From the NCBI RefSeq assembly GCF_002355595.1, contig NZ_AP017422.1:4712001-4776000 (forward strand): a DNA stretch of 64,000 bases. The letters run 5' to 3'. The notes under the pieces were generated by a model. The model had not been told where the DNA came from. It worked only from the letters and a program-made list of their open reading frames with translations, and did no database searches. This stretch comes from Filimonas lacunae (GTDB lineage Bacteria; Bacteroidota; Bacteroidia; Chitinophagales; Chitinophagaceae). Positions 33,659-37,270 of this stretch are shown here, piece by piece (the first letter of the stretch is position 1; every line of letters starts with the position of its first letter). The position numbers and the translations under genes were made by a program.

Positions 33659-34594
33659 CTATTCTTCCTCTTCTTCCACAGCTACTGCTTCATCGGGCCT
33701 CTCAAAAATGAAAGCCTGCACCTTTTTATGAGAAGTAAACAACCATACAAATGATATTATAAGCCAGAAAATGGCCACACCTTTCAATCCTCGTTCTGTA
33801 CTTACTTCTGCTTTTTTATTCCTTCGTGCTAAATCCAGGCTTTTTTCTCCATTCTTTTCTACGTCATACACATGATGTGTACCCGGTTCAATCCATAAGC
33901 TCAGCGTATCTCCTTTTAAATACATCACTTCGGGATACCCTTCTTTAAAGCAAAGCATATGCACTTCTTCATTCCATCGATATACATCTTCATTTTCACA
34001 TTCAAAGGCATAATAGGTTACTGTATGTTTAGTGGATTTGTCAACTACCACCCGGCAATCGCTTTTCAATATTACATCCGGAACCAACTGCCAGTTATCA
34101 CGTGTTAGCAGGTAAGCTTGACTACTCTTATTATAAACATAGGGTACTACTCCAAAAACAAATACAAAAACCACTACCCAAACCACTTTGTTTTTGCTTA
34201 ACGAATATTTTCCGTTGAAGGCATTGGCACAGCGTTCGTATATGCGACCCGCTTTGGAAAGAACAGATCCCCGTTCTTTTATAAAAAGTAAAATCGCCCC
34301 CACTAATAAAATACAGGCTATATTCTCCCAAAGCCGGTTTACATTAATAATAGCCTGCCATAGTATAGACATTGTAGCAACTATCAGAAAAAGAGAGGCT
34401 CCAAATTCCACCCTAAAGTCCGCATCTGTTTCATGCTTTTGTAGTTCTTCAATTAACTGCATAAGCTCGCTATATTCTTCCTGCGAAAGTGAGTAAGTCT
34501 CTAAGATACTTGTTAAAGCATCTTCATACTTCCACCCCTCTTTTTTAAGAAGATCAAGATACTGTAATGCCTTTTCTATGTTTGTTAATGACAT
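33659..34594 (-). CDS. Unrecognised membrane protein, paralogue A
   Basis: 311 aa, no family recognised. The N-terminal ~50 residues are a helical, UBA/SHOCT-like segment (YLDLLKKEGWKYEDALTSIL, YSLSQEEYSELM). Two hydrophobic helices follow at ~65-107, another at ~135-152 (VVWVVVFVFVFGVVPYVY) and a last one at ~272-290 (IFWLIISFVWLFT). Between them, ~155-265 is a soluble domain with CENEDVYRWNEEVHMLCF and LSLWIEPGTHHVYDVE. It shares this layout with the upstream gene at 34629 and is a diverged tandem duplicate. The C-terminus is acidic. Confidence 0.75.
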   Translation of the reverse strand: MSLTNIEKALQYLDLLKKEGWKYEDALTSILETYSLSQEEYSELMQLIEELQKHETDADFRVEFGASLFLIVATMSILWQAIINVNRLWENIACILLVGAILLFIKERGSVLSKAGRIYERCANAFNGKYSLSKNKVVWVVVFVFVFGVVPYVYNKSSQAYLLTRDNWQLVPDVILKSDCRVVVDKSTKHTVTYYAFECENEDVYRWNEEVHMLCFKEGYPEVMYLKGDTLSLWIEPGTHHVYDVEKNGEKSLDLARRNKKAEVSTERGLKGVAIFWLIISFVWLFTSHKKVQAFIFERPDEAVAVEEEEE

Positions 34595-34628: not shown

Positions 34629-35624
34629 TTAAAGCATGGAATTTCTATAACTTCTTACGCAAAATGGCACCATGGCCATAAGCCCTGCCAGGTAGCATAT
34701 CGCATACATATTGAGTTTATTATGTATTGTGTAAGTAGCCACATCATTTCTTTCATCCAGCATAAGCATATGCCCCTCTTTTGTAGCAATATCCATTACA
34801 TGGCCACCTTCAGCGTCCAGCCATATATCAATATACTCAGAAGCCTTACAATCTCTCATTGGCAAACGTCCAATCGCAAAGCACGATAAATGGTCAGAAG
34901 AATACCAGCGATATACTTCGTTGTCATTCTCGCATTGAAGCTCGTAATATTCATACCTTTTACTCCCCCTCCCCCTTCCTTCGGCCCTTTCTCTACAATC
35001 TGCTTTGAGCTGTTTTCCGGACAGTTTTACCCAGTCACTATTGTGTAACAAATAGGTTTTGTTCACATATCTGCGCACGTCGCTAAACGTAAATAATATC
35101 AGCAACGGCACAAGAACAAGAAAAAAGGCAAAAGGACTTATGCCTACCTTTTCCCAATGAAACAAACCTGTATCGCTATCTGATTCCAGGCTAACTCTAC
35201 CTTTATCCGACTTGTTATTTCTAAACGACCTTGTAGTTGCAAAACGATTCACCAGGCGTCGCGTATGCTTTCTTTTGCGCTTTAGCAGAATGATTAATCC
35301 AACAATGCTTGCAGCAAATAAGCAAAAGCTAATAGCTAATATATTGTACAGATACAAAACCACATTACCTGCATAAGCTATAAATATTGCCATAGCAGCT
35401 AGCCCCAGCATTATTATTATCAAACAAACCGCCTTTCCAATCTCATTGTCAACAGCACTGGTATTTACCGGCCGGCCTTCCATTATATACTGTAGGTAGG
35501 CTAATTCATCCTCAGAGAGCGGGTAAATAGCAGCCAACTCTTGTAAGGCATTTGCATCAGAGACGCCATCCTTTTTAAGCATCGCCAGATACTCATGCAC
35601 TCCCACCTCTTTTTTCTTCTTCAT
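34629..35624 (-). CDS. Unrecognised membrane protein, paralogue B
   Basis: 331 aa from ATG 35624. That start is chosen because it aligns with paralogue A: both have 11 residues before the YL-x-LKK motif. An in-frame ATG at 35684 would add 20 residues. Same layout: helical head (YLAMLKKDGVSDANALQEL, YPLSEDELAYL), two helices at ~65-120, a third at ~170-190, then a soluble domain with CENDNEVYRWYSSDHLSCF and IDIWLDAEGGHVMDI, and a final helix. It lies 34 bp upstream of paralogue A. The 21-bp repeat array starts about 150 bp upstream of its start codon. Confidence 0.75.
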   Translation of the reverse strand: MKKKKEVGVHEYLAMLKKDGVSDANALQELAAIYPLSEDELAYLQYIMEGRPVNTSAVDNEIGKAVCLIIIMLGLAAMAIFIAYAGNVVLYLYNILAISFCLFAASIVGLIILLKRKRKHTRRLVNRFATTRSFRNNKSDKGRVSLESDSDTGLFHWEKVGISPFAFFLVLVPLLILFTFSDVRRYVNKTYLLHNSDWVKLSGKQLKADCRERAEGRGRGSKRYEYYELQCENDNEVYRWYSSDHLSCFAIGRLPMRDCKASEYIDIWLDAEGGHVMDIATKEGHMLMLDERNDVATYTIHNKLNMYAICYLAGLMAMVPFCVRSYRNSML

Positions 35625-35776
35625 AATACTACAGCTTGCCGGATCAAAAATAACCAATGGATCGAAACCCGGAAATGCTTTCACCGCCGTTAATAATACT
35701 TCCTAATTTATAACAGGTTTGTGCGCGGTCTTTGCACCATACTTACAAAGGAATCAATTCTCCTTTGACGATACCC

Positions 35777-36532
35777 GCAAGTTGTAATGGACAGCCCGGC
35801 AGTAATGACACAACAACGGACAAGACTTCTACGTCTTCTGTAATTAGTGCAGGAAAACGCATACTTATTGCCGGAAGCCGGTGCAGAACTAACGAAAAAA
35901 TGGTAAGTACAAACGCACGCTCTGTCAATGCTGACGCAATACCCGACAGTTCTTATTTATTCCCGGGAAGTACTGCATTATTACCTGTACACAATACCGG
36001 AATAAGGGGTAGTTACTACGGAAGATGCGTAATAGCTGACGGGCTCCCGGTAACAACTGCAATAAGATTGGGAGAGTATGCCGGGCAACTTGTACGACTG
36101 TACACATCATTTTGCAGTCTTCCCAGCCGAACCGTGAAACTTCCCGGATGATCCGTGAAGTTTCTCCATTGATTCGTGAAGTTTACCGGTTGAGTGGAGA
36201 AGCTTCCCGGCTGAAGCGTAAATGTTTTCGAAATAACTGAGAAGGTTTTCAAATCAATGGAGAAGATTCCCAGTATAACTGTGAAGCTTCTCAGAAAAAC
36301 GGTGAACTTTCACGGTTGAATGGAGAAGGTTTTCAATTCTAACGTGAATATTCCCGATTTATTGGAGAACATTCACGGCAAAGTAGAGAACGTTCTCATA
36401 AGAACCGGTAAGGTTCTCCATTAGGTAGTGAAGGTTCTCAATGAACCTGAAAAGCTTTTCAACCAAAGCGTAAAGCTTCCCGCCCGGATGGAAAGACTAT
36501 ACAACTGTTTTCAAAAGCTGGTAATACAATCC
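35777..36532. repeat. Degenerate 21-bp-period tandem repeat array, about 36 units
   Basis: No gene is supported here. From 36134 to 36490 there are 17 consecutive units of exactly 21 bp, each starting with a 12-bp imperfect palindrome of consensus G(A/T)GAA-NN-TTC(C/T)C, then a variable 9-bp spacer. Perfect examples are GAGAACGTTCTC at 36386-36397 and GTGAACTTTCAC at 36302-36313. The same register continues upstream to 35777 in weaker form: counted by eye over 36 windows, base 1 is G in 32 and base 4 is A in 32. Stop codons interrupt the coding-like plus frame. Function is unknown. Confidence 0.85.
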
Positions 36533-36543
36533 CACAGGTACCG

Positions 36544-37227
36544 TCACTTATTATATTCTCTTTTGCCAAACAGTAAGCTACCTATACGCACCATCGTGCT
36601 GCCTTCCTCTACTGCCATTTTATAATCACCACTCATGCCCATAGATAAAGTCTGGAGCTGGCAATTGGAAGTTGAAAGCGCTTGATGCTGCTGAAAGAGT
36701 TGATGTATGTATTGAAACTCCCCTCTTACTTTTTGAGCATCATAGCTAAAAGAAGCCATCCCCATCAGGCCATCTATATGAATATGCGACCATTGTTCCG
36801 GATAGGAAACAATGCTGGTAAGCAATTGTTGCAATTCCTCCGCATCCAGGCCAAATTTAGTTTCTTCCTGAGCTATATGTATCTGTAGCAAACAATGTAT
36901 CACCCTATTGTTTTTAGCCGCCTGTTTGTTTATTTCCTGTAGCAGTTTTTCGCTGTCTACGCCATGAATCAGATACACAAACGGAGCTATGTATTTTACT
37001 TTATTTGATTGCAGATGACCAATAAAATGCCAGCGGATATCTGCCGGCAACTCTGGTTGCTTTTCGGTAATTTCCTGTACATAGTTTTCGCCAAAATCGC
37101 GCTGTCCCAGATTGTATAAAGCCTGAATATCTTCGGCCGGTTTGGTTTTGCTCACCGCTACCAATGTCACCTTGCTGGCATACAATTCATCTGTAATCTC
37201 CTTATACACTTCTTCGTTAACAGCCAT
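36544..37227 (-). CDS. YggS family PLP-binding protein
   Basis: Pyridoxal-phosphate homeostasis protein of the alanine-racemase-like barrel fold, 227 aa from ATG 37227; the longer open frame has no protein-like character. K27 in AVSKTKP is the PLP lysine. FGENYVQE and WHFIGHLQSNK are family signatures, and the C-terminus has LSMGMSGDYKMAVEEGSTMVRIG. Members (YggS/PLPBP) buffer free PLP rather than catalyse. A TACTTTTG -7 box lies 14 bp upstream. Confidence 0.93.
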   Translation of the reverse strand: MAVNEEVYKEITDELYASKVTLVAVSKTKPAEDIQALYNLGQRDFGENYVQEITEKQPELPADIRWHFIGHLQSNKVKYIAPFVYLIHGVDSEKLLQEINKQAAKNNRVIHCLLQIHIAQEETKFGLDAEELQQLLTSIVSYPEQWSHIHIDGLMGMASFSYDAQKVRGEFQYIHQLFQQHQALSTSNCQLQTLSMGMSGDYKMAVEEGSTMVRIGSLLFGKREYNK

Positions 37228-37240
37228 ATTCCATTTTATG

Positions 37241-37248
37241 CAAAAGTA
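37241..37248 (-). promoter_or_regulatory. Putative -7 box of the yggS-family gene
   Basis: Minus-strand TACTTTTG is an exact TAnnTTTG match, 14 bp before the ATG. The identical octamer precedes bshB1 at 45420. No clear -33 element. Confidence 0.4.
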
Positions 37249-37270
37249 ATTAATGATGGGATAAACCGCT

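Follow-up and report, generated by a model that had tools for sequence, protein, structure and literature searches.

The array of 21-bp units at positions 35777-36532 of the window (the whole stretch of 64,000 nucleotides that was analysed) is a member of a class of 21-bp palindrome arrays that is found genome-wide and accompanies one protein family, whose members have a predicted helical hairpin and a fibronectin type III (Fn3) domain. With modest confidence, we lean towards a two-part gene-array system, of which the window array would be an orphan, diverged and composite member.

Structure and register of the window array

The sequence-only reading had described about 36 units over 35777-36532. 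The single 21-bp register is real, but it is clear only from 35777 to 36490, a length of 34 units, and is weak over the remainder to 36532. The autocorrelation that it proposed as a check gave a signal far above chance: identity at lag 21 is 0.49 over 35777-36532, and none of 1000 dinucleotide-preserving shuffles was as high. The sub-ranges 36126-36508 and 35777-36125 have lag-21 identities of 0.575 and 0.418, respectively, and neither value was reached in 1000 shuffles. The shuffle control was also passed when each shuffle was represented by its best lag within 3-63. Lags of 42, 63, 84, 105 and 126 are about as strong as lag 21.

The array is composed of two sub-arrays with a common phase, given here without strand. 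The 5' sub-array B (35777-36112; lag 21) contains 16 units of 21 bp (consensus GtAAgtacTgaCGgAa.Accg), and the 3' sub-array A (36134-36490) contains 17 units of 21 bp (consensus GtGAAG.TTCtCgattgAat.), which are present and exact in length, as first reported. In the unit listing, the two are joined by one junction unit (36113-36133) that leaves the register unchanged. Sub-array B thus represents a second, different motif in the same phase. Across 16 overlapping two-unit windows of sub-array A, six columns never vary (G at 1, A at 4 and 5, T at 8 and 9, and C at 12), and this set is symmetric about position 6.5. The near-palindromic core noted there at the outset is borne out, and both sub-arrays are dyad-symmetric against column-permuted controls (0 of 5000 for one sub-array; p=0.0026 for sub-array B). 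Phasing of the cores along the helix, with 21 bp corresponding to two helical turns, is likewise supported. Divergence among the units runs along their whole length.

The region had also been called gene-free and constrained at the level of DNA, and both statements are supported: no listed open reading frame of at least 60 residues spans the array (the longest overlapping frames are of 139, 78 and 65 residues), and the conserved columns follow the dyad. No Rfam family reached its gathering threshold in the window.

The array class in three related genomes

The genome of origin (G000, 7.81 Mb in one contig) was compared with those of two congeners, G001 and G002, the latter being called the sister species. 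R1, a sequence-only model built from sub-array A, identified a second locus in G000 at 5095541-5095924, together with weaker ones. In the profile search of related genomes that had been suggested, R1 also matched G002 and had no match in G001 (E<=0.1). At L055 3954-3995, a near-perfect inverted pair of 21+21 bp closes the 5095-kb array.

A scan for periods of 8-60 over 1.184 Mb of G000, including the window, returned 15 periodic regions, of which five have period 21, three period 42, one period 43 and six other periods. The same scan of 400 kb of G002 gave nine regions, three of them with period 21 or 42, and of 400 kb of G001 five regions, one of them a weak 21. The palindromes differ between arrays, for example TCCAATAGCTATTGGA in L209, GTAAGTACTTAC in L231 and GGTGAGCCCTCACC in L245. 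Unit symmetry is significant (p<0.05, column permutation) in 13 of 15 periodicity-selected segments, some of which belong to one array; the exceptions are L234 (0.09) and L245 (0.07). Additionally, one of two further segments adjoining R1 loci is significantly symmetric.

Linkage of the arrays to one gene family

A G002 array used as a blastn query matched the window array and two more arrays of the own genome, L323 and L325. L323 and the G002 locus L060 each lie directly 5' of a gene whose product begins MKKYKDF. A tblastn search with these two family proteins over the sampled sequence identified seven distinct loci (L060, L323, L222, L235, L205, L234 and L209), five of which had originated from blind sampling. 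All seven have an array of the 21-bp type nearby, which at L235 is a 105-bp repeat (5 × 21) and at L209 lies about 1.8 kb away. A profile built from seven family proteins (A3) matched 18 genes in G000, one of them a fragment, and 18 in G002. The congener G001, which has no R1 match, has no family gene either.

Thirty of the 36 family genes of G000 and G002 were examined for arrays, with a threshold score of at least 0.44. An array of period 21 or 42 is present within 1500 bp upstream of 25 of the 30 genes and downstream of none. As a background, 1500-bp windows were scored by the same measure, which was reached in G000 by 47 of 2254, in G002 by 19 of 760 and in G001 by 7 of 760 (2-2.5% in G000 and G002). 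The corresponding binomial P of about 1e-36 is overstated because the paralogues are not independent (the L332 and L334 proteins are identical), which does not affect the contrast between upstream and downstream. The five genes lacking a 21- or 42-bp array at this threshold are L336 (105-bp repeat), L361 (65-bp tandem repeat upstream), L340, L354 and L356. When extent is measured more strictly, L348 and L351, which are among the 25, have no array of at least 84 bp.

Among 41 regions upstream of family genes, 32 contain an array long enough for analysis of symmetry, and 25 of these arrays are palindromic at p<0.05. Similarity between arrays tracks similarity between the linked proteins (Mantel r=0.43, 0 of 2000, 22 arrays), a correlation that joint descent also predicts. 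In one clade, the array stops 21-41 bp before the start codon. L332 and L334 represent a recent duplication in the own genome: these two chromosomal sites encode identical family proteins, and their leaders and arrays are almost the same.

The family protein and its cassette

The family protein consists of about 210-235 residues, with a predicted N-terminal two-helix hairpin followed by a C-terminal Fn3 domain. The AlphaFold model (pLDDT 84.5, pTM 0.46) contains helices at residues 12-33 and 39-92, and its C-terminal domain matches Fn3-type folds with a best E of 1.3e-4. The helical half modelled alone (pLDDT 90, pTM 0.65) gave no match below E 1 in a fold search (best E 1.9). Searches of Pfam, NCBIfam, PHROGs, PADLOC and PDB sequences yielded no significant model for the family protein; the best sub-significant matches were to Cmr1 in a one-member search of PADLOC (0.0073) and to a coiled coil in a search of the PDB with a 32-member profile (0.0069). 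A Pfam scan of seven members returned two marginal, unrelated matches only, with E of 0.065 and 0.12. No known DNA-binding domain was recognised in the model, and the proteins show no consistent positive charge (pI 5.6-9.4).

A DUF5675 gene is located 3' of the family gene, within 1500 bp, at 11 of the 30 loci, and Pfam confirms the assignment in both that were scanned. DUF5675 is named in papers on vibriophages. Within the same distance, a small open reading frame follows at 10 of the 30 loci, and a frame of about 400 residues lies 5' at 8 of the 30. We read the small frame as holin-like, a reading on which Pfam makes no call. A conserved transposase gene was not found up to 1500 bp from the family genes.

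In one clade, a leader of about 400 bp is conserved between array and gene (16 loci aligned). It contains a palindrome, which lies about 150 bp beyond a pair of direct repeats separated by 11 bp. The direct repeats fit the palindrome of their own leader better than those of other leaders (11.07 versus 5.96; 0 of 5000) in an analysis of 15 loci with this second half-site, namely L332, L335, L337-L339, L341, L343, L345, L346, L348-L350, L352, L355 and L357.

Orphan arrays as copies of gene-linked arrays

Some orphans are copies, collinear but lacking the flanks, of an array that is linked to a family gene in the same genome. For L254, L325 and L074, the closest unit profile is that of a gene-linked array in the same genome (L335, 0.97; L344, 0.94; and L350, 0.93, respectively). 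L059 reaches 0.91 with L333, second to its fellow orphan L062, with which it is 89% identical over 279 bp. The 95% level of permuted columns for these similarities is 0.40-0.45. The order of units is retained in the same pairs, as judged against the maximum score of 100 unit-order shuffles: L254/L335 match at 88% over 329 bp (score 453 versus 101), L074/L350 at 83% over 254 bp (263 versus 97), L325/L344 at 76% over 288 bp (226 versus 77) and L059/L333 at 73% over 237 bp (154 versus 116). The collinear matches stop no further than about 25 bp from where the arrays end. No gene-linked array is close to the orphan L231, whose best similarity is 0.52.

The sites occupied by arrays are species-specific. 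The two genes of a tRNA-Gln pair beside TyrRS are 860 bp apart with an array between them in G002 and 126 bp apart without an array in the own genome, a difference of the insertion type, and the L055 locus lacks its array in G002. Six of 14 array loci lie between convergent genes.

Neighbourhood and origin of the window array

The window array is flanked on one side by a membrane protein gene (34629-35684, minus strand) and on the other by a YggS-type gene with an alanine racemase N-terminal domain (36544-37251, minus strand), which serve as context only. The adjacent membrane proteins encoded at 33659-34594 and 34629-35684 are 28% identical to each other, with no Pfam family above cut-off, and the pair has one distant homologue, elsewhere in G002. 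At the syntenic place in both congeners, the array and the membrane pair are missing, and the YggS and S9-peptidase neighbours are kept. The pair was considered as the partner of the array and rejected, since the genes beside other arrays are of very different kinds and both congeners lack the pair together with the array at this place.

A profile search of G000 found no Fn3-family gene near the window array. The unit profiles nearest to sub-array A are those of L055A (0.81; orphan, own genome), L333 (0.72; gene-linked, G002) and L344 (0.60; gene-linked, own genome), and that nearest to sub-array B is L347 (0.75; gene-linked, G002). At the DNA level, the window array matches the G002 array L059, in sub-array A, at 75% over 75 bp (blastn, E 1.3e-6). 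Its collinearity is marginal with L333 (54 versus a shuffle maximum of 48) and L055 (55 versus 50); in four further orientation tests, against L344 and L347, the scores were not above the shuffles. With no family gene nearby and only weak collinearity, the window array is probably an old, diverged and composite orphan of the array system, an attribution that is less certain than the gene-array system itself.

Occurrence in other genera and phyla

Among 70 other genomes, hand-picked and mostly of the same taxonomic family and order, five carry the protein family at E<=1e-5. Of their 15 loci, 14 were examined (the remaining one being part of a gene already counted), and upstream sequence of at least 250 bp is available for 11. 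At nine of these 11, the upstream sequence fits a period of 21 or 42 best; downstream, period 21 was best once, and weakly (L366, 0.423). One of the five genomes, G356, is also the sole other genome with a real R1 array in a search of 98 genomes of the taxonomic family, in which R1 matched three: the own genome, L309 (a real array) and L310 (no array). Across the phylum, R1 matched 9 of 296 genomes at E<=0.005; none of the matches in the eight genomes besides the own is a 21-bp array on inspection, and three of the eight resemble LacI-like operator pairs by eye.

Retrieval by the array pattern alone found a family gene that adjoins the array and reads away from it in two among the 115 matches listed, in a MAG of candidate division WOR-3 (L117, E 3.5e-15) and a Prevotellaceae MAG (L173, E 5.6e-8). 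The other 113 of the 115 listed, many of them short contigs, had no family gene in an iterated HMM search over open reading frames. Fischerella (G039) and Pelatocladus (G042) contain many R1-like arrays and no family gene at E<=1e-5; the partner there, if any, would therefore be another one. Fischerella also contains many other repeat periods. Small dispersed repeats are known in cyanobacteria. In Fischerella sp. PCC 9431 (L280-L291), at least 12 places carry 21-bp arrays with a common unit like GAGAAANTTCYYGGTTGAAAC, which resembles the window unit despite the different phylum. A tblastn search of plasmids and phages with two family proteins gave no match, nor did a search of viral contigs with one family protein as the query, which covers close relatives only.

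Proposed system and alternative explanations

In the favoured two-part system, one part would be the gene for the hairpin/Fn3 protein and the other the tandem array of 21-bp palindromes 5' of this gene, with a palindrome sequence specific to each gene. The array, stripped of its flanks, would be copied to other genomic places and persist there as an orphan. We infer that the array is bound by a protein of the system: a dimer, most likely of the linked Fn3 protein or of another cassette protein, may read the half-sites, all of which would be presented on one face of the helix. The gene-linked array may control the cassette, which at about one third of the loci continues with the DUF5675 gene and the small holin-like gene. 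The orphans could act as extra platforms or decoys, or be passengers. Several results count against this system: the model shows no DNA-binding domain and the proteins no consistent positive charge, five of the 30 family genes fall short of the array threshold, and most array-pattern loci, like the Fischerella arrays, come without a family gene. For the window array in particular, the missing family gene and the marginal collinearity also speak against it.

Alternatively, the arrays might be non-autonomous mobile repeats that depend on an unrelated enzyme for their movement, with the 5' site resulting from duplication of the cassette or from a favoured target, and with no cassette protein reading them. 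The orphan copies, which comprise the array only, are consistent with such passengers, as are the many arrays in other phyla without a family gene; with no conserved transposase gene found up to 1500 bp from the family genes, the enzyme that moves the arrays would have to lie at another locus. However, the 5' position is kept across genera and in two further lineages despite differing palindromes, and the congener G001 is without both the gene and a model match, so that we regard this explanation as unlikely.

It is highly improbable that the array acts after transcription as a chain of RNA hairpins (a leader, an RNA chaperone target or a terminator). The folding energy is far below that of dinucleotide shuffles (z of -6.7 on one strand and -5.1 on the other), and the arrays that end shortly before the start codon would suit a leader; however, folding is no better than in unit-order-shuffled arrays (8 arrays), and the window has no Rfam match. 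Moreover, the arms are not paired unit by unit, with no covariation within units and a mean z of -0.51 over 36 arrays, slightly below permuted arrays. Recognition of half-sites therefore fits better than hairpins.

Neutral minisatellites, in which slippage-prone palindromes expand wherever they are tolerated and have no partner, would account for the orphans between convergent genes and for the turnover of arrays between species. We give this very little credence in view of how strongly the arrays are linked, on the 5' side, to a single gene family, the unit order kept between dispersed copies and the recurrence of period 21, 42 or 43 in 9 of the 15 periodic regions of the own-genome sample. 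Finally, a heptad-coding gene or its relic (21 bp being seven codons) is hardly credible and is unsupported for the window array: some relatives are open over long stretches and the L060 frame continues into the family gene, but palindromic units are enough to create open frames on either strand, none of the listed frames extends through the window array, its conserved columns follow the dyad, and the in-frame upstream translation of L323 is broken by many stops.

Comparison with known systems

In REP/REPIN elements with RAYT genes ("REPtrons"), a palindromic extragenic repeat is located beside a dedicated gene, several gene-specific repeat families and orphan copies occur per genome, and gene-repeat co-evolution has been proposed (PMC3116915, PMC3733652). 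The arrays share with these elements the palindromic repeat beside a dedicated gene, the gene-specific repeat families, the orphans elsewhere and a proposed co-evolution of gene and repeat. They differ in the partner, which is modelled as a helical hairpin plus Fn3 domain and has no Y1 (HUH) transposase domain in the Pfam scan of seven members; in the copied unit, which is a long tandem array phased at 21 bp and located only 5' of the gene (25 of 30 upstream, 0 of 30 downstream); and in the GTAG/CGTC tags, which are not regular on the 34 units of the window (GTAG 3, CTAC 2, CGTC 1, GACG 2). REP/RAYT is the nearest system by layout, but we do not class the present arrays as a REP system.

Four G002 copies have inverted ends, by eye only, as might be seen in a mobile element. 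MITEs and other non-autonomous transposons form short dispersed noncoding copies, whereas the body of the arrays consists of phased palindromes, with no transposase identified. Partition sites, iterons and operator arrays are tandem protein sites beside the gene of their binder, phased by whole helical turns; here, in contrast, the sequence varies from gene to gene, many arrays occur per chromosome, and no DNA-binding fold was recognised. TIGR arrays with Tas have short repeats and spacers of about 9 nt, as does the window array, but their unit is about 36 rather than 21, and no Nop-type domain was found by Pfam in the window neighbours or the seven family members. The arrays differ from CRISPR, in which nearly identical repeats alternate with unique spacers beside cas genes, in that the units diverge throughout, with no Rfam match and no cas family among eight scanned neighbours.

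No description of such arrays or of the protein family was found in the literature, the coverage of which is incomplete, chiefly for subscription papers, so that an earlier description is possible. Our best reading is that the gene-array system is a previously undescribed one.

Implications

A more specific reading is offered tentatively, as a real possibility: each paralogue may own a private upstream array of 21-bp palindromes as its cognate DNA, copies of which spread through the chromosome, with a second private half-site in the leader of one clade and with many loci leading into a lysis-type cassette (DUF5675 and the holin-like gene), such that protein and DNA specificities would diversify paralogue by paralogue. 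If so, the family would provide a natural set of orthogonal protein-DNA pairs, with many candidates from a single genome. The family, with about 18 genes in each of two species, would be the partner of mobile tandem-palindrome arrays, and a class of intergenic repeats would be explained, which would give a handle on the origin and spread of extragenic palindromes without a recognisable transposase.
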